From a virus: a stretch of DNA of 57,973 nt. The notes beneath the pieces are model-generated. The model was not told where the DNA came from. It did not search any database and saw only the letters and a list, made by a program, of their open reading frames with translations. The number at the start of each line of letters is the position of its first letter. The first letter of the stretch is position 1. The translations under genes and the position numbers were made by a program. Positions 1 through 57,973 of this stretch are shown piece after piece. The stretch spans positions 1-57,973 of IMG/VR virus record IMGVR_UViG_3300046471_000036. One strand, given 5' to 3'.

Positions 1-127
1 TCCCGCAGTGGACCGCCGCTTACGTGATGTCGATGGACGCCCGCGCACGCGATGCGACGCTGGGCACCGGTACCGCCGCCGGCAGCTACTCGACGCACTA
101 CCGCGACCGGAAGACGGATCGGCCGGT
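1..127. repeat. 127-bp terminal direct repeat, left copy
   Basis: These bases are identical to 57847-57973. The length of exactly 127, a common assembler k-mer size, and its position inside a coding sequence suggest the overlap of a circular assembly graph rather than a physical terminal repeat. Confidence 0.97.
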
Positions 128-1640
128 CAGCCTGAAAAATTACCCGTACATGACGCTCGAAGGCAATCCAGGCGATACCTGGAACCCAGCAACCAACGTC
201 CGCGAGTCGTTCCCCGATGCCGGCGGCGACGTGACGACGCCATACACCGCGGATATTTCGCACCAGCCGAATCTCGCCTACGTGCCATACCTGCTGACGG
301 GTGATTATTACTACCTGGAAGAAATGCAGTTTTGGGCCATGTACGACACCTTCCGGTCGAACCCGAACTACCGCGGCCAGGGCCAAGGCCTGGTGATTCC
401 CGGCGAACTCCGTGCGCAAGCATGGGCAATGCGCACGCTGGCCGAGGCCGCTGCTTTCACGCCTGACGATGACGCTCTGAAGGCCGAATTGAACGGCTTC
501 GTGAGCAACAATCTCGACTGGTACAACGCGACCTACGCGCAGAACCCGAAAGCGAATCAACTGGGCGTGATGACGCACGGCTACTCATTCGCGTACGGCG
601 TGGCGATCGCTGCCTGGATGGATGATTTTTTTACCTCGGCCATGGGCCACGCGGTCGACCTGGGATTTACCAGGGCTGCGCCGATGCTGGCGTGGAAAGC
701 AAAATTCCCTGTCGGTCGCATGACTGCGCCTGGCGTGTGCTGGGTGATGGGCGCGCCGTACGGGCTGAAGCTGCGCGAGGGCGACAACGAATCATTCCCT
801 GTGTACTCGACGCTGGCCGATGCCTATAAAGCCGTCTACCCCGGCTTCGTCAGCCTGCCATGCGCAGGCGCTGAAATGGCTGCGGCATGGGGCGCGCGTG
901 GCGCCGGTGACATGGGCGGTATTTCGGAGGGTTACCTGGGCTACCCGTCGAACATGCAGCCAGCACTGGCGTGGGCTGTCGATGCGGGCGTGCCGAATGC
1001 GCCAAAGGCATGGGACCTGTTCATGTCGCGCACCGTCAAGCCAGATTACAGCCTCGGCTCCGGCTTCTCGATCATCCCGCACGGCTATGTGAATACGACT
1101 GTATCGCCGACGCCCGGTGCCACGCTGCCGACAGCGCCTGCCGCACCCGTTACGCCGATCGTCACTGCCACGCTGGCTGCTGCGCCGACCGTCGCCGGGA
1201 CGTGGATGCGGCTGGGCGGGGAGAATGAAATCGTTACCGTGCCTGCCGACACCGTCGTGCGCTACGGCGATGGCGCGACTGGCCGCTACGTGTACGCCAA
1301 GATCACAGGGCAGTTCACGATCTCCAACGATTATTTCGGCAGCGACCCGGCCGTGACGATCAACAAGACGGCGGAGGCCTTCACGCCGGCGCCGCCAGCC
1401 AAGCCAGGCAAGGTCACGACGCCGACGAACGTCAAGCTGCAAAAGCTGACAGGCCTGACCGCAACGTTCATCGATCCGATCACGCTCGACGAGGTGAAGC
1501 AGTTCACCGGCGTGACCGCCACGTCGAAAGGAGCGCTCAGCTTCACCGAAGTCGCACTGGTGCCTGGCACCACCTACATGGTCCGAGTCGCTAACACCAG
1601 CGGCGTCCTGGACGTCATGTACCCGATCACCGCTCAATAA
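1..1640 (+). CDS. RIFT-barrel/toroid polysaccharide-lyase-like protein, C-terminal part
   Basis: This is the 3' part of the 864-residue gene that starts at 56892; the frame is continuous across the circle junction. The part here holds a helix-rich segment (full-protein residues about 345-690) with an aromatic, conserved-looking stretch HQPNLAYVPYLLTGD, as in alpha/alpha-toroid polysaccharide lyases. A proline/threonine linker and two small beta domains follow. The last one (about 780-864) looks Ig-like and starts after PAKPGK. The stop at 1638-1640 is 9 bases before the next gene. The family suggestion (PcRGLX/YetA-like, exo-rhamnogalacturonan-lyase group) rests on recalled sequence character, not on a search. 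A structural, non-enzymatic role is possible. Confidence 0.75.
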   Translation, partial: PQWTAAYVMSMDARARDATLGTGTAAGSYSTHYRDRKTDRPVSLKNYPYMTLEGNPGDTWNPATNVRESFPDAGGDVTTPYTADISHQPNLAYVPYLLTGDYYYLEEMQFWAMYDTFRSNPNYRGQGQGLVIPGELRAQAWAMRTLAEAAAFTPDDDALKAELNGFVSNNLDWYNATYAQNPKANQLGVMTHGYSFAYGVAIAAWMDDFFTSAMGHAVDLGFTRAAPMLAWKAKFPVGRMTAPGVCWVMGAPYGLKLREGDNESFPVYSTLADAYKAVYPGFVSLPCAGAEMAAAWGARGAGDMGGISEGYLGYPSNMQPALAWAVDAGVPNAPKAWDLFMSRTVKPDYSLGSGFSIIPHGYVNTTVSPTPGATLPTAPAAPVTPIVTATLAAAPTVAGTWMRLGGENEIVTVPADTVVRYGDGATGRYVYAKITGQFTISNDYFGSDPAVTINKTAEAFTPAPPAKPGKVTTPTNVKLQKLTGLTATFIDPITLDEVKQFTGVTATSKGALSFTEVALVPGTTYMVRVANTSGVLDVMYPITAQ

Positions 1641-1649
1641 CGGAAAAAT

Positions 1650-3368
1650 ATGACAGACCACTTCAACGCAGTTCGCGGCGCTCTAACCGCTGGCGGTACG
1701 GGTAACGTCACCGCTGCATCAACTGCGTCAGGCAAGGCGCGCCCGTTGAGCACCCTGCCAACCGGGTGGCAGGGCGGACTGCGCTTCGACGACCCAAACG
1801 GCGTCGACTGGGAATTGTCGCTCTGCACGGCACAGGGCGGCAACGTGTTCTCGCGCGACACGCTGCTGTGCAGCTCGACCGGGAGCAAGGTAAATCTGGC
1901 AGTCGGAACAATTGTGCTTCAAACGGTGGTTGCCGAGCAGTTGAACGCAATGCTTTCCGTGGCGGATATTCCGTTTTCCGGCGCAATCCCGCTGACGCGT
2001 CCAGGCAACAGCTACATGGCCGCCAAAACAGTTTCTGGGCCGCTTACGTTCACCCCGGCGGCCAGCGCTGTGCGCGGTGCCTTGGTGTATCTGCGAGTGA
2101 TCGCTGATGGCACGAACCTGCCAATCTATTCCGCGTTCAAGGAATGGGGTGGCTCAATGGGCTACTTGAACGCCGCCGGCATCGAAAATCAGATGCAGTT
2201 CTTCTACGACGGCTTCAATTACTTTGTCTTGATTACCCAGGCCATCAATGCCGTTGCCGTGCCATTGCCAGTGAGCGGGGTAACGCTGGCAGGGCCAACA
2301 GGCGGCATTGTTAATCAAGCCTCGGCTAACTTCACGGTTGGCGTCACTCCTGTCGGCGGCACGATCACAGGTGATGTAGTGGTAACGCCAACACCAGTAT
2401 CCGGAGTCACTTTCACCCCAACGAGTCGCACGGTTAATAACGCGTCTCCAACCGGCACTTTCACGGCCACGCCGAATGCGACAGGCAGTGTAAGTATTGC
2501 CGTTACGAACAGTGGCGGATTGGCTAATCCGGCTGCGATTGGGTACACGGTTTCAGCCGCGCCGACGTTGCCAGGCACGCCGGCAGCGCCTACGGCAACC
2601 GCGGGCGTGAACAGCGCGTCTCTCGCGATCGTCGCTCCTTCTACTGGTTCCGGCACCATCGATAGCTACGTCGTGACACCGTATCTGGCCGGGGTTGCGC
2701 AAAATCCGCAAAACATTACAACGCTGTCCAGCCCGCTCAATATTACGGGTCTTACTGCCGGCAATTACACCTTTACTTTCCATGCGCGTAGCAATGTCGG
2801 AAATGGTGCGGAATCGCCTGCATCGAATTCTGTTGCTGTGACTGGGCAGGTATCGACTGCTCGCCGTCTGACCTCCTTGGTCGGAATGACGGAATCTGCG
2901 TCGGCACCATACGTGTACTCCTCAGATGGCAGCAACTACAGTGGCTCAGATGGCCCCAAAGGGCGATTGAGTGCTACGCTTCCAAGCGGCGCTAATGGGT
3001 CAATTCAATTCATTATTTCAACTTCCGTCGGTGGCGGCGTCATGTTGGGGACCGAACTATCGCCCGCCCAGGCCGGATATGGTAATTGGGGCTATGGCAC
3101 GTTCGGCTCGACGGGCAACTACAATTCTTTGAACGGTGGAATTAGTGGGCAGAATGGCGCAGCGCTTACTCCTGCTGTTGGCGATATCGTGCGCTGGACG
3201 CGCACCGGAACGACCATCGTAATTGATGTTGCTCGTGCGTCGAGCCCGACATCTTTTACTGTGGTGCAGACTTACACGAATGCGAGCACGGCGCTTCTTT
3301 ATTTCAACCTGTCTGCATCAGTTGGTGGCGCGCTCAGCAACGTCAGCACGAGTGGCGGGTTCGCCTAA
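1650..3368 (+). CDS. Virion-associated protein with Ig-like and Fn3-like domains
   Basis: This 572-residue protein has no recognised catalytic motif. The N-terminal 210 residues are a mixed domain beginning MTDHFNAVRGAL. Then come an Ig-like repeat (about 215-305), an Fn3-like domain after PGTPAAPTATAG (about 307-398) and a C-terminal beta-rich domain (about 403-572) with many Gly, Ser and Tyr residues, as in lectin-like phage appendages. The stop overlaps the next start as TAATG, so it is probably co-translated with the SGNH hydrolase. It may be a capsid decoration or head-fibre protein. Function is inferred from domains and position only. Confidence 0.7.
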   Translation: MTDHFNAVRGALTAGGTGNVTAASTASGKARPLSTLPTGWQGGLRFDDPNGVDWELSLCTAQGGNVFSRDTLLCSSTGSKVNLAVGTIVLQTVVAEQLNAMLSVADIPFSGAIPLTRPGNSYMAAKTVSGPLTFTPAASAVRGALVYLRVIADGTNLPIYSAFKEWGGSMGYLNAAGIENQMQFFYDGFNYFVLITQAINAVAVPLPVSGVTLAGPTGGIVNQASANFTVGVTPVGGTITGDVVVTPTPVSGVTFTPTSRTVNNASPTGTFTATPNATGSVSIAVTNSGGLANPAAIGYTVSAAPTLPGTPAAPTATAGVNSASLAIVAPSTGSGTIDSYVVTPYLAGVAQNPQNITTLSSPLNITGLTAGNYTFTFHARSNVGNGAESPASNSVAVTGQVSTARRLTSLVGMTESASAPYVYSSDGSNYSGSDGPKGRLSATLPSGANGSIQFIISTSVGGGVMLGTELSPAQAGYGNWGYGTFGSTGNYNSLNGGISGQNGAALTPAVGDIVRWTRTGTTIVIDVARASSPTSFTVVQTYTNASTALLYFNLSASVGGALSNVSTSGGFA

Positions 3369-4030
3369 TGGGGCCGCTGCTTGGGGGTTCAGCGCGAGCC
3401 AGTTTCTCGCCCACTAAAGCGGCGGCTGTATTCGATGGCAATTCGCTCGTCGATACGGCTACAAGCGATCTTGTTTTGCAGTTGCAGGCGATAGCCCCGA
3501 TTAGTAATCAAATAACGATCTTGAATCGAGGTGTAAGCGGGCAAACTATTCGAAATATGATTACTCGCGCTCCGTCGAATGTGGATAACGCATTCATTGA
3601 TGGTAAGTCGAATTATCTTTTTTTGTTCGAAATCACCAACAGCATTTTCAATAGTGGCTTAACTGGAATGCAGGCGATTGCCGATCTAAACGAATATATT
3701 CAGGGGCGGCTTGCACTACACCCATGGAAAATAATTCTGCTCACGTGCCTGCCGCGCGGGGATTTTCTCGGCACTACCTGGGATGCTTACACAGGCGAGG
3801 ATCAGATTCAAATCGCCAATACGTATCTGCGTCAAAACTTCAGGGCAATGGGCGCCAAAGCATTGGTAGAAATACGCCGAGCTGGTGGGCCGTTCGACTT
3901 TAACGACCCTTGGAATCACGGTAGATTTCCGCCGTCACTATGGAATGATCTTACACATCCAAATGCGGCCGGGCGCGCAATTGAAGCCCAGTATATCGCC
4001 GATGTTCTCAAGCGGCTTCCGGCGAGGTAA
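3368..4030 (+). CDS. SGNH/GDSL-type hydrolase (esterase)
   Basis: This 220-residue protein carries SGNH blocks: block I FDGNSL with candidate nucleophile Ser26, block II GVSGQT with Gly58, a degenerate block III ending EITNS in place of GxND, and block V DLTHPN with Asp194 and His197. Family members remove acyl groups, often acetyl groups on polysaccharides. There is no signal peptide. It lies between two Ig-like proteins and downstream of a lyase-like protein, so a role in removing O-acetyl groups from a surface glycan is a reasonable inference. Loss of the block III Asn may reduce activity. Confidence 0.8.
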   Translation: MGPLLGGSARASFSPTKAAAVFDGNSLVDTATSDLVLQLQAIAPISNQITILNRGVSGQTIRNMITRAPSNVDNAFIDGKSNYLFLFEITNSIFNSGLTGMQAIADLNEYIQGRLALHPWKIILLTCLPRGDFLGTTWDAYTGEDQIQIANTYLRQNFRAMGAKALVEIRRAGGPFDFNDPWNHGRFPPSLWNDLTHPNAAGRAIEAQYIADVLKRLPAR

Positions 4031-4033
4031 CCG

Positions 4034-5242
4034 ATGACCGGATTCTACACAACCGGCGAGGTAGCGATTGGGCTGGTGGGCGACGCCGGCGCAGCGCCAG
4101 TTTCGACCGTCACCGGCGTTACCGTCTCGCCGTCCACGGCAACTCTAGCCGGCGGCGCTATCGTCGATTTCGATTGGGTGATCACTGGAGCGAATGGCCC
4201 GAGCCAGGCCGCCACCGTCACGACGACGCTCGGAACGATCAATTCGGCTGGCGTGTTGACCGCGCCGGCGGCAACGTCGTCTGCGCAGGCTGGCACGGTC
4301 ACCGTGACCAGCGCGCAGGACCCGACGAAAAGCGGCACGGCCACATTCACGGTGTCCGCGGCGCAGGCCGGCGACACCACCGCTCCGACGCTGACCGCTG
4401 CCAGCGCCACCGCCGCCGGCCAGACGACCGCCACCGGAACCGTCACTACCAACGAGGCGGGCGGCACGCTGTACGGCACCACTACGGCGAGCGCGACCGC
4501 GACGGCATCGCAGGTGCAGGCCGGTATTTCGAAAGCCGTGACGGCAGCTGGCGAGCAGGCGATGAGCTTCACCGGTCTGCCCGCAGGCGCCACGCTGTAC
4601 CCGCATTACGTGCACGTGGACGCATCTGGCAATGTCTCTGCAGTCGCCAACGGCGCCAGCTTCACGACGCAGTCCGCGGGCGACACCACCGGCCCGGTCA
4701 TGCAAGGCGAACTGATCGCCAGCAAGACGTCGACGACGACCACGATCACGGTTCCGGTCGCCACGGACGCCAGCGGCATCGGCGAATACTTCTTCGCCAT
4801 CGACGGCGGGGCGCCGGTCAGCAACGGATCGAGCCGGACCAAGACATTCACCGGCCTGGCGCCGCTGACGCCGCATCTGTACGAGGTCACGGCGACCGAT
4901 ACGCTGGGCAATCCGTCCGGCAACTCGCTGAGCATCACGGTCGTGACGGACGCCGCCGGCGACGATCCGAGCCTGGTGACGAAAAACATTCAGGTGACGC
5001 TGAAGGGCCGAGACCTCTCGGTGCGGGCGAATGCCGCCGGCATCAACTGGGAATGGTCCGACGCGCGCGGCGTGGTCACATCGTCCGGTACCGGGCTGGT
5101 CGGCAGTGCCTCTGGCGTGCTGACCATTCCAATCCGGACGCGGCTGCTGTCGGACGGGGTAGGGCGGCTCAGCCTGGACAACTACAACGGCGGCAACATC
5201 CTGACGTACCTTGCCACGCAATTGTGGGTGCGCTTGCCGTGA
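4034..5242 (+). CDS. Ig-like (Big_2/Fn3) repeat protein
   Basis: A 402-residue beta-rich protein. Residues 25-110 form a bacterial Ig-like domain, with VTGVTVSPSTATLAGG at its start. Two Fn3-like units follow the repeated phrase DTT(A/G)P (about 113-212 and 214-303). A C-terminal domain of about 90 residues begins at SLVTKNIQVTLKG. Composition is rich in Ala, Thr, Ser and Gly, with no Cys. Such repeats are common as weak glycan-binding decorations on capsids and tails. Its stop overlaps a GTG start (GTGA) of the next small ORF. Role inferred. Confidence 0.7.
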   Translation: MTGFYTTGEVAIGLVGDAGAAPVSTVTGVTVSPSTATLAGGAIVDFDWVITGANGPSQAATVTTTLGTINSAGVLTAPAATSSAQAGTVTVTSAQDPTKSGTATFTVSAAQAGDTTAPTLTAASATAAGQTTATGTVTTNEAGGTLYGTTTASATATASQVQAGISKAVTAAGEQAMSFTGLPAGATLYPHYVHVDASGNVSAVANGASFTTQSAGDTTGPVMQGELIASKTSTTTTITVPVATDASGIGEYFFAIDGGAPVSNGSSRTKTFTGLAPLTPHLYEVTATDTLGNPSGNSLSITVVTDAAGDDPSLVTKNIQVTLKGRDLSVRANAAGINWEWSDARGVVTSSGTGLVGSASGVLTIPIRTRLLSDGVGRLSLDNYNGGNILTYLATQLWVRLP

Positions 5243-54572: not shown

Positions 54573-55259
54573 ATGTCGTTTTTGACGAAATCCGTTCCGC
54601 TTGAGCTGAAAAGCTTGACGGACGAAGGCACCTTCTCGGGCTACGGTTCGGTCTACAACGTCGTAGACAAAGGCGGCGACATTGTCGCTCCCGGCGCGTT
54701 CTCAGAAAGCCTGGCGGCCTGGAAGAAAGCCGGCCGCACGGTCCCTGTCCTTTGGCAGCACCAGACAGACCAGCCGATTGGCGCCTGGACGGACTTGAAA
54801 GAGGACGAACACGGGCTGCTTGGCGACGCATCTCTCTGGCTGGCCGAGGCCCCATACGCGCGCCTGGCGCACAAGGGCATGCAGACGAAGGCCATCACCG
54901 GCCTGTCGATCGGCTACCGCGTCAAAGACTACAGCATCAACAAAGAAACCGGCATCTACACGCTGATGAAGCTGGAACTGGTCGAAATCAGCGTTGTGAC
55001 CAACCCGATGAACGACGACGCTCGCGTGGCCGACGTCAAAGCATTGATCGAAGCGGGGCGCTTGCCTTCGCTTTCAGAATTCGAAAAGTTCCTGTGCGAG
55101 GCAGCGGGCTTTTCAAAAACGCAGGCCAAAGCCATCGCCGGCAATGGCTTGTCGAAATTGCTTGCTCGGTGCGAGGCCGAGGGCGAAAAAGGCGACAACG
55201 AAAAACAAGCGCTCAGCCTTCTGGCCGCTTTCACCCTCACCACCAAGGAAACAAAATGA
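54573..55259 (+). CDS. Prohead protease, HK97 type (U35)
   Basis: 228 residues. LWQHQTDQPIG holds the catalytic His of the HK97 protease family, and MQTKAITGLSIGYRV the catalytic Ser. Cleaves the scaffolding region of the capsid protein. AAGGAAA upstream. The stop overlaps the capsid start (ATGA). Confidence 0.93.
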   Translation: MSFLTKSVPLELKSLTDEGTFSGYGSVYNVVDKGGDIVAPGAFSESLAAWKKAGRTVPVLWQHQTDQPIGAWTDLKEDEHGLLGDASLWLAEAPYARLAHKGMQTKAITGLSIGYRVKDYSINKETGIYTLMKLELVEISVVTNPMNDDARVADVKALIEAGRLPSLSEFEKFLCEAAGFSKTQAKAIAGNGLSKLLARCEAEGEKGDNEKQALSLLAAFTLTTKETK

Positions 55260-56605
55260 AAAAAAGTAACATCTTCAAGATTGCATTTTTTGCGGTCGTC
55301 GCCCTCGGCGCCGGCATCGCGCAAGCTGCAGGCGTCGACGTCGCAGCGTTCGTGCAATCGCATCGCGAACTGGCGGCCGGTTTGTTGATGGCCAGCATGG
55401 CTGGCGAAATGGACATCAAGGGCCTGGAATCGGCGCTCGGCAACATCAAGGGCCAGGTGCAGGAGGCTGCCGAAAAAACGCTGGCCGAGGCCAAAAAAGG
55501 CATCGACATGTCGGTCGAACAAAAAGGCCGCATCGACGAACTGCTGACGGAGTTCCATGAACTGAAAGGCCAGGTCACTGCTGTTCAGCAACTGATCGTT
55601 CTGCCGAAGGGCAATGAAGGCCAAAACGAATTCAAAACCGCCGGTCAGCGCGTCGTGGAAAGCGACGGATTCAAAGGCATGGACAGCTCGTCCCGCGGCA
55701 AGTCGATGCGCGTGTCGATGGAGCGCAAGGACCTGATGAACGTGACCGGCACCACCGGAACCGGCGTCAGTCCTGGCAACTCGCTGACCCCGGGCGACCG
55801 CCAAGTCGGCATTATCGCGCGCCCGAACCGCAAGATGACCATCCGCGACCTGTTGATGCCTGGCCAGACCGACGGCTCGTCCATCGAATACGTCGTCGAA
55901 ACCGGCTTCACCAACAACGCCGGCATGCAGGTCGAAGGCGCCGCCAAGGGCAAATCGAACATCACGTTCGACCTGAAGAGCGCGCAAGTTCGCACGATCG
56001 CCCACTACTTCAAAGCTTCGCGCCAGCTGCTGGACGACGCCAAGGGCCTGGCCAGCTACATCGACGGTCGCGCAGAATACGGCCTGCGCTTTAAGGAAGA
56101 GCAGCAGTTCCTCGCTGGCGATGGCTCGGGCGCCAACATTCTGGGCTTGATGCCGCAAGCATCGGCGTTCGTCGCCAATCCGAACGTGGTCGTTACCGCC
56201 GGCACCGCGCTGGACCGCATGCGTCTGGCGCTGCTGCAGGTCGTCCTGGCCGAGTACCCATCGTCGGCGTTCATTCTGAACCCGATCGACTGGACGCAGA
56301 TCGAGTTGACCAAAGACCTGGAAGGTCGCTACATCATCGCGTCGGCCGTCAACGGTACCGACCCGCGCATGTGGGGCCTGCCGGTCGTGGAAACCCAAGC
56401 GATGGCGCAAAACAACTTCCTGACCGGCGCATTCAATCTGGCGGCGCAGATTTTCGACCGTATGGACGTTGAAGTGCTGCTTTCGACTGAAAACGAGGAC
56501 GATTTCATCAAAAATATGTGCACAATTCGCGCCGAAGAACGGACTTTGCTGGCCGTTTATCGTCCTGAAGCCTTTGTTACCGGCCTCGTAAAACCAGCGG
56601 CCTAA
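55256..56605 (+). CDS. Major capsid protein, HK97 fold
   Basis: 449 residues from ATG 55256. The delta/scaffold domain (about 52-120, coiled: EAAEKTLAEAKKGIDMSVEQ) is followed by the HK97 core with TPGDRQVGIIARPNRKMTIR, NAGMQVEGAAKGKSN, HYFKASRQLLDDAKGL and GDGSGANILGLM. Unusually, the first 45 residues look like a signal peptide or membrane helix (KIAFFAVVALGAGIAQAAG). An internal ATG at 55409 would start the usual delta domain (MDIKGLESALG). The predicted protease cut is near residue 125. Confidence 0.95.
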   Translation: MKKSNIFKIAFFAVVALGAGIAQAAGVDVAAFVQSHRELAAGLLMASMAGEMDIKGLESALGNIKGQVQEAAEKTLAEAKKGIDMSVEQKGRIDELLTEFHELKGQVTAVQQLIVLPKGNEGQNEFKTAGQRVVESDGFKGMDSSSRGKSMRVSMERKDLMNVTGTTGTGVSPGNSLTPGDRQVGIIARPNRKMTIRDLLMPGQTDGSSIEYVVETGFTNNAGMQVEGAAKGKSNITFDLKSAQVRTIAHYFKASRQLLDDAKGLASYIDGRAEYGLRFKEEQQFLAGDGSGANILGLMPQASAFVANPNVVVTAGTALDRMRLALLQVVLAEYPSSAFILNPIDWTQIELTKDLEGRYIIASAVNGTDPRMWGLPVVETQAMAQNNFLTGAFNLAAQIFDRMDVEVLLSTENEDDFIKNMCTIRAEERTLLAVYRPEAFVTGLVKPAA

Positions 56606-56660: not shown

Positions 56661-56876
56661 ATGAGTGAAGTAACAGTCAAGGCAATTCGTCCGTTCGAGG
56701 GCGACGAGGGGTTCAAGAACTCCGAAAGCGAGCCATTTACCGTTTCGCGCCAGCGCTTCGCCGACCTGAAGGCCAACGGCCTGGTCGAAGAAGTCAGCGA
56801 AAAAGCTGCCCCGGCACCGCAAAACAAGATGGAAGCCGCGCCGACCAACAAGGCCGCCGTCAAAGTCAACAAATAA
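56661..56876 (+). CDS. Small head protein
   Basis: 71 residues, GGAG upstream. VTVKAIRPFEGDEGFKNSES and SRQRFADLKANGLVEEV match short proteins found after capsid genes in related phages (an FxGxxGxK pattern then RxxxLxxNGLV). The C-terminus is Lys/Ala/Pro-rich. Perhaps a capsid-stabilising peptide. Function unproven. Confidence 0.65.
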   Translation: MSEVTVKAIRPFEGDEGFKNSESEPFTVSRQRFADLKANGLVEEVSEKAAPAPQNKMEAAPTNKAAVKVNK

Positions 56877-56891
56877 CCCCGAGCGCACACG

Positions 56892-57973
56892 ATGACCACC
56901 CGATCCCGCATCACACTGTTCTTGGCCGCCGCTCTGCTGGCTGCCAGCGCAGCCGCCGCCGGCGCCATCACCGATGTGCGCTTCCAGAATACCGGTGCCG
57001 CCCAATCGAACGTGCCCGTCACCTTCGGCCAGGTGTTCGCCGTCGGCGACATGAAGAAGTCCGACGTCCTGGTCGGCAAGCTGGACGGCGCCACCGTGCC
57101 GCTGCAGGTCGACGTCAAGGCCACGCATGCCGACGGCAGCGTGCGCCACGCGATCATTTCGGCCATCGTGCCATCGCTGAAGGCCGGCGCCACCGGCACG
57201 ATGACGCTCAACACCGGTGGCACCGCGGCGCCCAGCACCGTCACCACGGTCAACCTGCTGGCCGATGGCTTCACCGCCTCGGCCTCCGCGACCATTGCCG
57301 GCGTCAAGTACACCGCATCCGCTGACCAGCTGCTGAAGGTCGGTGCCAAGGCAACCTGGCTGGCCGGCGCCGTCGCCAACGAATGGCATGTCTCGGCACC
57401 GTTGACCACCACGGCCGGCGTGGCGCATCCGCACCTGCAGGCCCGCTTCGCCGTGCGCTATTACAGCGCCGTGAAGAAAGCTCGCGTCGACGTCACCATC
57501 GAAAACGCATGGGCATTCGAGCCCGGCCCGCAGAATTTCACCTACGACACCGAGATCATCGTCGGCGGCAAGTCCGTCTACAGCAAAGCAAGCCTGACGC
57601 ACCTGCACCACGGGCGATGGCGCAAACTGTTCTGGTGGGGCGACGCGCCGGCCGTGAACGTGCAATCGAACGTACCGTACCTGATTTCGACCCGCGCGGT
57701 ACCGAACTATGATCCGCTGTACCCGCCATCGGAAGCGGTGCTGCAAGCCATGGCCACGCGCAATGCCAGCAGTATGGAGCCGATGCAACTGGGCTTCGCC
57801 TCGCCATACATGCCGACCACCGGCGGCAATGATGGCATCGGCATCCTCCCGCAGTGGACCGCCGCTTACGTGATGTCGATGGACGCCCGCGCACGCGATG
57901 CGACGCTGGGCACCGGTACCGCCGCCGGCAGCTACTCGACGCACTACCGCGACCGGAAGACGGATCGGCCGGT
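56892..57973 (+). CDS. RIFT-barrel/toroid polysaccharide-lyase-like protein, N-terminal part
   Basis: The gene continues over the circle junction to base 1640; 864 residues in all. A clear Sec signal peptide stands at the N-terminus: basic MTTRSR, hydrophobic LFLAAALLAASAAAA, cut near residue 25. Then a RIFT-barrel-like domain (about 30-180) has NVPVTFGQVFAVGDM and LQVDVKATHADGSVRHAI. A further beta part carries GPQNFTYDTEIIVGGK and HLHHGRWRKLFWWG. A helical toroid and two small beta domains follow in the other part. A signal peptide is odd for a gene in a head operon. Confidence 0.8.
   Translation, partial: MTTRSRITLFLAAALLAASAAAAGAITDVRFQNTGAAQSNVPVTFGQVFAVGDMKKSDVLVGKLDGATVPLQVDVKATHADGSVRHAIISAIVPSLKAGATGTMTLNTGGTAAPSTVTTVNLLADGFTASASATIAGVKYTASADQLLKVGAKATWLAGAVANEWHVSAPLTTTAGVAHPHLQARFAVRYYSAVKKARVDVTIENAWAFEPGPQNFTYDTEIIVGGKSVYSKASLTHLHHGRWRKLFWWGDAPAVNVQSNVPYLISTRAVPNYDPLYPPSEAVLQAMATRNASSMEPMQLGFASPYMPTTGGNDGIGILPQWTAAYVMSMDARARDATLGTGTAAGSYSTHYRDRKTDRP
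57847..57973. repeat. 127-bp terminal direct repeat, right copy
   Basis: Identical to 1-127. Read the two as one stretch of the circle. Confidence 0.97.

Follow-up and report, generated by a model that had tools for sequence, protein, structure and literature searches.

A PL26-like lyase from a host EPS-enzyme family, with fiber and esterase genes, between the capsid and connector genes of a temperate siphophage

Among the head genes of the phage analyzed here lies a PL26-like lyase that belongs to an enzyme family of host EPS loci and carries an added phage-type C-terminal domain, and it is this combination of source, domain and gene position that is new. The window (the whole stretch of DNA analyzed, 57,973 nucleotides of IMG/VR record IMGVR_UViG_3300046471_000036) encodes the lyase as the first gene of a four-gene cassette, which continues with two fiber-type proteins and an SGNH esterase; the lyase recurs at the same position in other phages, in one of which an esterase domain is fused to a homolog of a cassette protein. 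The cassette is likely an EPS-degrading system. Its fuller reading, to which we give an even chance, is that of an EPS-breaching module carried by a temperate siphophage whose hosts are Massilia-like (Oxalobacteraceae); in it, an exported lyase would be combined with virion-borne fibers and esterase.

Organization and position of the cassette

The first 127 bases of the window are identical to its last 127 bases, and the window is therefore a complete circular phage contig. When one repeat copy is removed, a single 864-aa frame runs across the junction (56892-57973, then 128-1640); joining the ends with both 127-bp copies kept was rejected because it breaks the lyase frame. The original prediction, made from the sequence alone, placed four large co-directional genes of 864, 572, 220 and 402 aa in the interval from the major capsid gene to the head-tail adaptor, and this arrangement is borne out, with the length of 864 aa obtained after end joining. 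The coordinates attached to it, 56892-57973, cover only its beginning, and the rest lies past the junction, extending to 5242. The signal-peptide-like N-terminus, the RIFT/toroid fold, the Fn3/Ig domains and the SGNH motifs that had been described were all found. The features are as follows.

55256..56605, + strand: HK97-type major capsid protein (phrog_10, 2.6e-77)
56661..56876, + strand: 71-aa gene between the capsid gene and the lyase (phrog_20799, function unassigned)
56892..57973, + strand: PL26-like lyase gene, 5' part (residues 1-360), with signal-peptide-like residues 1-25 at 56892-56966
1..127 = 57847..57973: repeat inside the lyase gene, from the comparison of the ends
128..1640, + strand: lyase gene, 3' part, with the catalytic part ending near base 1082 (residue 679)
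1083..1637, + strand: lyase C-terminal extension, with a terminal domain of ~85 aa at about 1386-1637, absent from host homologs
1650..3368, + strand: P0001, 572-aa fiber-type protein with a tail-fiber-type N-terminus, a beta-sandwich and Ig/Fn3 domains
3368..4030, + strand: P0002, 220-aa SGNH/GDSL esterase (Ser26, Asn91, Asp194, His197)
4034..5242, + strand: P0003, 402-aa Ig/Fn3-like protein with a partial match to a 1058-aa protein of viral contig L002
5385..5948, + strand: head-tail adaptor, the downstream border of the cassette (phrog_442, 4.5e-23)

Terminase, portal, protease and HK97-type capsid genes and the 71-aa gene, which is kept upstream of the lyase in viral contigs L001 and L002, precede the cassette; the head-tail adaptor, Neck1, tail terminator and major tail protein follow it. 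The tail has its own fiber genes at 13-20 kb, as had been noted. The window also contains integrase, CI-like repressor and RecT genes, indicating that the phage is temperate. A DNA-level search of phage records with the window gave no match, and a capsid protein search of 62 Massilia-genus genomes found no close prophage of this phage.

That siphophages usually have little between capsid and connector holds for the four annotated phages that were compared because their head genes are related (Klebsiella phage ST13-OXA48phi12.4, Pseudomonas phages phi_D3 and TC7, and Sinorhizobium phage NV1.1.1), each of which has one or two small genes in this interval. The window shares with five further viral contigs, L001, L002, L085, L087 and L091, a lyase placed between capsid and connector genes; this recurrence of the slot, a point in favor of the original prediction, is beyond chance. 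Other phage lyases vary in position. In L088, whose capsid family is unrelated (phrog_29), the lyase is flanked by capsid and tail genes, and in L090 (capsid family phrog_334) by portal and capsid genes. EBPR siphovirus 1 has it after the terminase, ahead of a gene annotated as head protein; it precedes the terminase in L089 and L112. In L086 (L086:4127-10346) it follows the tape-measure gene, not a capsid gene, at the contig end, and in L092 it lies away from recognized head genes. The L112 terminase gene (L112:2982-5267), downstream of the PL26-like lyase, seems to carry an insertion of intein type together with an overlapping HNH-like frame.

Fold, conserved residues and kinship of the lyase

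Judged by its modeled fold, the 864-aa protein is PL26-like, short of a proven PL26 member. Against Pfam PF19501 (PL26 N-terminal RIFT) the window lyase scores 20.8 bits at a cutoff of 22.1, which is passed by the L001 ortholog (24.4 bits) and by EBPR siphovirus 1 gp39 (23.3 bits). The window gene spans the contig ends, and the protein modeled was the L001 ortholog, 71% identical to the window lyase, from an AlphaFold input alignment of the L001 lyase plus relatives (57 rows). The model has a mean pLDDT of 89.9 and displays RIFT barrels and an alpha toroid over its catalytic part. All 12 Foldseek matches in the PDB at E ≤ 0.001 are to the Penicillium PL26 exo-rhamnogalacturonan lyase, and a second structural alignment with PL26 (Z of 13.5, 511 residues, rmsd of 4.3) lays model residues 20-687 on residues 22-927 of the PL26 chain, spanning all catalytic domains; other proteins reach a Z of at most 10.4, with essentially the toroid alone covered. 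A PDB sequence search with the 57-sequence lyase profile returned no chain at E ≤ 1. The RIFT barrels and alpha toroid are common to the phage protein and the Penicillium chrysogenum enzyme (PDB 5xq3, 5xqg, 5xqj and 5xqo), but the phage protein is only about 10% identical to it, without a sequence match, has an extra C-terminal domain and probably acts on bacterial EPS. A beta-helix tailspike depolymerase was also considered and rejected on the RIFT and alpha-toroid model of the lyase ortholog.

The window lyase keeps all 37 of the strongly conserved, mostly polar or aromatic positions checked across 57 sequences, among them His237, His240, Arg242, His349, Arg351, His404, Tyr413, Glu423 and Glu424 (L001 numbering), and the same positions are retained in nearly all phage copies. 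The lyase-like nature of the large protein, as first proposed, is thus supported by both the PL26 fold of the ortholog model and the retained polar residues.

The phage lyases are distinguished by what follows the catalytic part. Most of the 46 bacterial lyases examined stop at "..FAIVPR" (residue about 678) or no more than a few residues from it, with a few from other lineages extending past it, and the window lyase continues for about 185 residues beyond this host end point. Its terminal 85-residue domain is common to the lyases of the window, L001, L002, L085, L089 and L112. A profile of this domain matches a frame beside EBPR siphovirus 1 gp40 (1.9e-5) and was found in 1 of 62 Massilia-genus genomes, the sole match (L116) being the C-terminus of a 493-aa Ig-type protein in a prophage-like region, beside a Gp77-type adaptor. 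Because it occurs beside EBPR gp40 and in a prophage-like Ig-type protein, we take the domain to be phage-type, present on both enzymes and fiber-type proteins. A profile comparison with fiber C-terminal domains, including that of P0003, gave a weak match (probability of 15%), which is suggestive of a kinship with the P0003 C-terminal domain.

The nearest cellular relatives of the window lyase come from Massilia and further Oxalobacteraceae and are secreted. A genome scan with the lyase recovered 78 loci, mostly from these bacteria, and the closest homologs are 50 to 60% identical over residues 26-678. At least two EPS-type gene families lie nearby in 35 of the 78 loci, including the XrtA/PEP-CTERM sugar transferase (TIGR03013), kinase PrsK (TIGR02916), the PEP-CTERM response regulator (TIGR02915), exosortase-A-associated ligase, decarboxylase and hydrolase, and a flippase. 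A nucleotide-sugar dehydrogenase and an epimerase in these loci are closest to TviB and TviC (Vi polysaccharide), below the cutoffs of both models, which suggests that the host slime contains uronic acids; a lyase needs uronic acids in its polysaccharide. The PL26-like proteins of the Massilia XrtA/PEP-CTERM EPS loci have the same conserved residues as the phage lyase, but many of them start like lipoproteins, with a lipobox that the phage copy lacks. A second Massilia clade of PL26-like proteins (L018, L023, L025, L027, L031, L033-L035, L041, L043-L046, L051, L052, L056, L071 and L080) adjoins S9 peptidase, urate oxidase, OHCU decarboxylase and M20 peptidase genes, not EPS genes.

In the phylogeny, the window lyase falls in a clade of six phages (support of 99) beside Massilia EPS-locus lyases; the L087, L089 and L091 lyases adjoin another EPS-locus group, and those of EBPR gp39 and L090 are remote. 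A single common phage clade was rejected (p-AU of 4e-79, reduced tree), indicating that phages took up the gene at least twice, and the nesting of the phage lyases in the tree points to transfer from host to phage.

Fiber and esterase proteins and their neighbors in relatives

P0002 contains the SGNH blocks GNS, GVSG, ITN and DLTH (Asp-x-x-His). Ser26, Asn91 and His197 are invariant among P0002 and its two homologs (L100 and L101), the block II Gly being Ser in L100 and the Asp not being retained in L101. The protein matches a phrog_6102 lipase (9e-7) and scores 17.1 bits against Pfam Lipase_GDSL_2, whose cutoff is 32.9. Searches of phages and viral contigs with the P0002 sequence found no match, its homologs coming from two Oxalobacteraceae genomes; a PDB sequence search with the esterase profile gave nothing significant, and a single-sequence structure model (pLDDT of 42) was unusable for a fold search. 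With Ser, Asn and His retained, P0002 is a plausible catalyst by its motifs, in keeping with the SGNH esterase predicted at this locus.

The flanking proteins are of fiber type, and together with their Ig/Fn3 domains they support the predicted presence of glycan-binding-type modules in the cassette. The N-terminal region of P0001 and that of its homolog match the N-termini of proteins annotated as tail fibers, the match of P0001 itself being weak (E of 0.05). Residues 114-402 of P0003 are 77% identical to the C-terminal part of a 1058-aa protein of L002, a polypeptide in which a SASA esterase domain is followed by the P0003-like part; this fusion ties the functions of the esterase and P0003 together.

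Esterases also accompany lyases elsewhere: an SGNH or SASA esterase protein directly follows the lyase in L001, L085, L088 and L091, and the L002 esterase likewise adjoins it. A fiber-type protein without a recognized esterase is present in L087, L090 and the EBPR siphovirus. For the SGNH part of the L001 esterase protein, a match to the neck passage structure proteins of phrog_7918 (1.6e-17) was obtained. Homologs of the P0001-P0002 pair occur without a lyase in prophage-type regions of two Oxalobacteraceae genomes. A Gp77-type gene, named a fiber-tail adaptor (podophage GP4) by Pfam, follows in L085, L087, L091 and L101, and the preceding protein ends in a VPxxRxVVFEGGxRVVxF-like tag; L116 has the two fused into a single protein. 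Tag and adaptor are a candidate docking peptide-adaptor pair. Profile and motif searches found neither in the window, L001 or L002, and a PDB sequence search with the Gp77-like protein gave nothing significant. The regions concerned are listed below.

L101:8138-14614: P0001-P0002 homolog pair in a Massilia-genus genome, between the capsid gene and a Gp77-type adaptor
L100:7711-10133: P0001-P0002 homolog pair in an Oxalobacteraceae genome, just before a GpA-type terminase
L085:11628, L087:10584, L091:13842, L101:8446 and L116:7738-8622: tag/adaptor sites

In the Massilia prophage-like region of L116, a 370-aa Kelch- or propeller-like protein (L116:10106-11218) lies between the portal and the fiber/Gp77 genes and is a candidate for a further glycan-acting module in the same slot.

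Delivery of the cassette proteins and relation to known systems

Signal-peptide-like N-termini occur on the lyases of five phages (the window, L001, L002, L085 and L086) as three different sequences, each with a charged start, a hydrophobic core and small residues; six phage lyases have no such N-terminus. None of P0001 to P0003 has one, and a joint export of all four proteins was therefore rejected. The major capsid open reading frame also begins with a signal-peptide-like stretch (window 55256-55333, MKKSNIFKIAFFAVVALGAGIAQAAG), behind a good ribosome-binding site; this stretch persists in L001, where 50 codons hold 16 amino-acid changes, and is absent from L002, L085 and L087. Because the capsid protein starts likewise, the signal-like stretch of the lyase is no strong argument for export. 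Read literally, it means that the lyase would be Sec-exported while the fiber proteins assemble inside the cytoplasm, and the signal peptide argues against its traveling with the fibers.

The cassette had been proposed as one system, possibly borne on the head. It is probably two units with different delivery, since the signal-like start is found on the lyase alone and the fiber/esterase pair occurs without a lyase in two prophage-like regions. None of the four proteins is placed on the head by the evidence: the fiber-type N-terminus, the Gp77-type adaptors of relatives and the neck-passage-structure match favor a neck or tail-side appendage over a capsid decoration for the fiber and esterase proteins.

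Under the preferred reading, the lyase, drawn from the host EPS-locus family, would be Sec-exported late in infection, would be freed at lysis as a soluble depolymerase clearing slime for the progeny, and would cut uronic-acid-containing EPS by beta-elimination. P0002 would strip O-acyl groups, exposing the chain, and P0001 and P0003 would bind glycans as fiber-type proteins, with the fiber and esterase proteins belonging to a virion appendage at the neck or on the tail side. That the lyase and esterase act in series on an acetylated polysaccharide, as the original prediction had it, is something we infer. Soluble depolymerases released at lysis are of a known kind (PMC5380687).

Alternatively, all four proteins, the lyase included, may be virion parts of one neck- or head-side appendage, the hydrophobic lyase N-terminus being a relic of the host ancestor or removed on assembly. 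The L087 and L091 lyases occupy the same slot without a signal peptide, the phage C-terminal domain is also found on the L116 fiber-type protein by a Gp77-type adaptor and beside EBPR gp40, the L001 esterase protein resembles a neck passage structure, and the window capsid protein itself has a signal-like N-terminus, all of which fit such an appendage. It is nevertheless somewhat unlikely, given that signal-like N-termini are retained in five phages as three different sequences and that a Sec-exported protein would be barred from cytoplasmic assembly.

P0001 to P0003 could instead be ordinary tail-tip fibers, with a gene position in the head block that says nothing about location. The match of P0001-type N-termini to proteins annotated "tail fiber," the naming of Gp77 as a fiber-tail adaptor and the L086 lyase after the tape-measure gene agree with this, but we hold it unlikely in view of the distinct tail fiber set at 13-20 kb and of a slot by the head genes that recurs with unrelated capsid families (phrog_29 in L088 and phrog_334 in L090). 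It is doubtful, too, and quite improbable, that lyases of the signal-peptide clade are exported, freed at lysis and then dock on the neck appendages of released particles; if true, this would make the lyase a virion enzyme assembled outside the cytoplasm.

Two further readings concern the lyase itself. In lysogenic conversion, a lysogen would make and export the lyase, altering host biofilm or dispersal and not aiding infection; integrase, CI-like repressor and an enzyme family common to host EPS loci suit this idea, which is made highly improbable by the siting of the lyase within the late head operon on the same strand and by its linkage to fiber/esterase genes across phages. A case for a lyase built from fold and conservation would also accommodate a catalytically dead, lectin-like adhesin, but its probability is very slight, since the window has lost none of the strongly conserved positions checked and nearly all phage copies retain them too.

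The EPS-breaching module that we prefer has partial counterparts. In EBPR siphovirus 1, as in the window, the head block has a PL26-like protein, gp39, with an Fn3 protein, gp40, after it, but gp39 is 33% identical to the window lyase, lacks a signal peptide and an adjoining recognized esterase, and lies in a different slot. Glycan-acting or glycan-binding appendages at the capsid/neck side are known from the lactococcal neck passage structure, whose collar fibers have glycan-binding ends (PMC6669499), and from the pre-neck appendage depolymerase of Staphylococcus phage PhiIPLA7 (PMC5380687), whereas the window cassette, a putative appendage of this kind in which no BppU-type N-terminus was recognized, adds a PL26-like lyase. 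Pantoea WceF (PMC7949094) is an EPS-locus enzyme with phage-enzyme relatives, and Vibrio RbmB has such a relative in the Peru-2 tailspike (PMC13320782), so that in these cases, too, a host EPS-modifying enzyme and a phage depolymerase have a common fold and target; they are, however, beta-helix proteins, the phage ones tailspikes, in contrast to a PL26-fold lyase with its gene in the head block.

Most phage depolymerases are beta-helix tailspikes, and their origin is unclear. The source of the enzyme is traceable here, to an Oxalobacteraceae EPS-locus family, and provides a testable pair of host and phage enzymes for the same slime. The finding also poses the question of whether one gene in one position is delivered by two routes, export and the virion, and it suggests that a host's own EPS enzymes may serve as predictors of what its phages carry.
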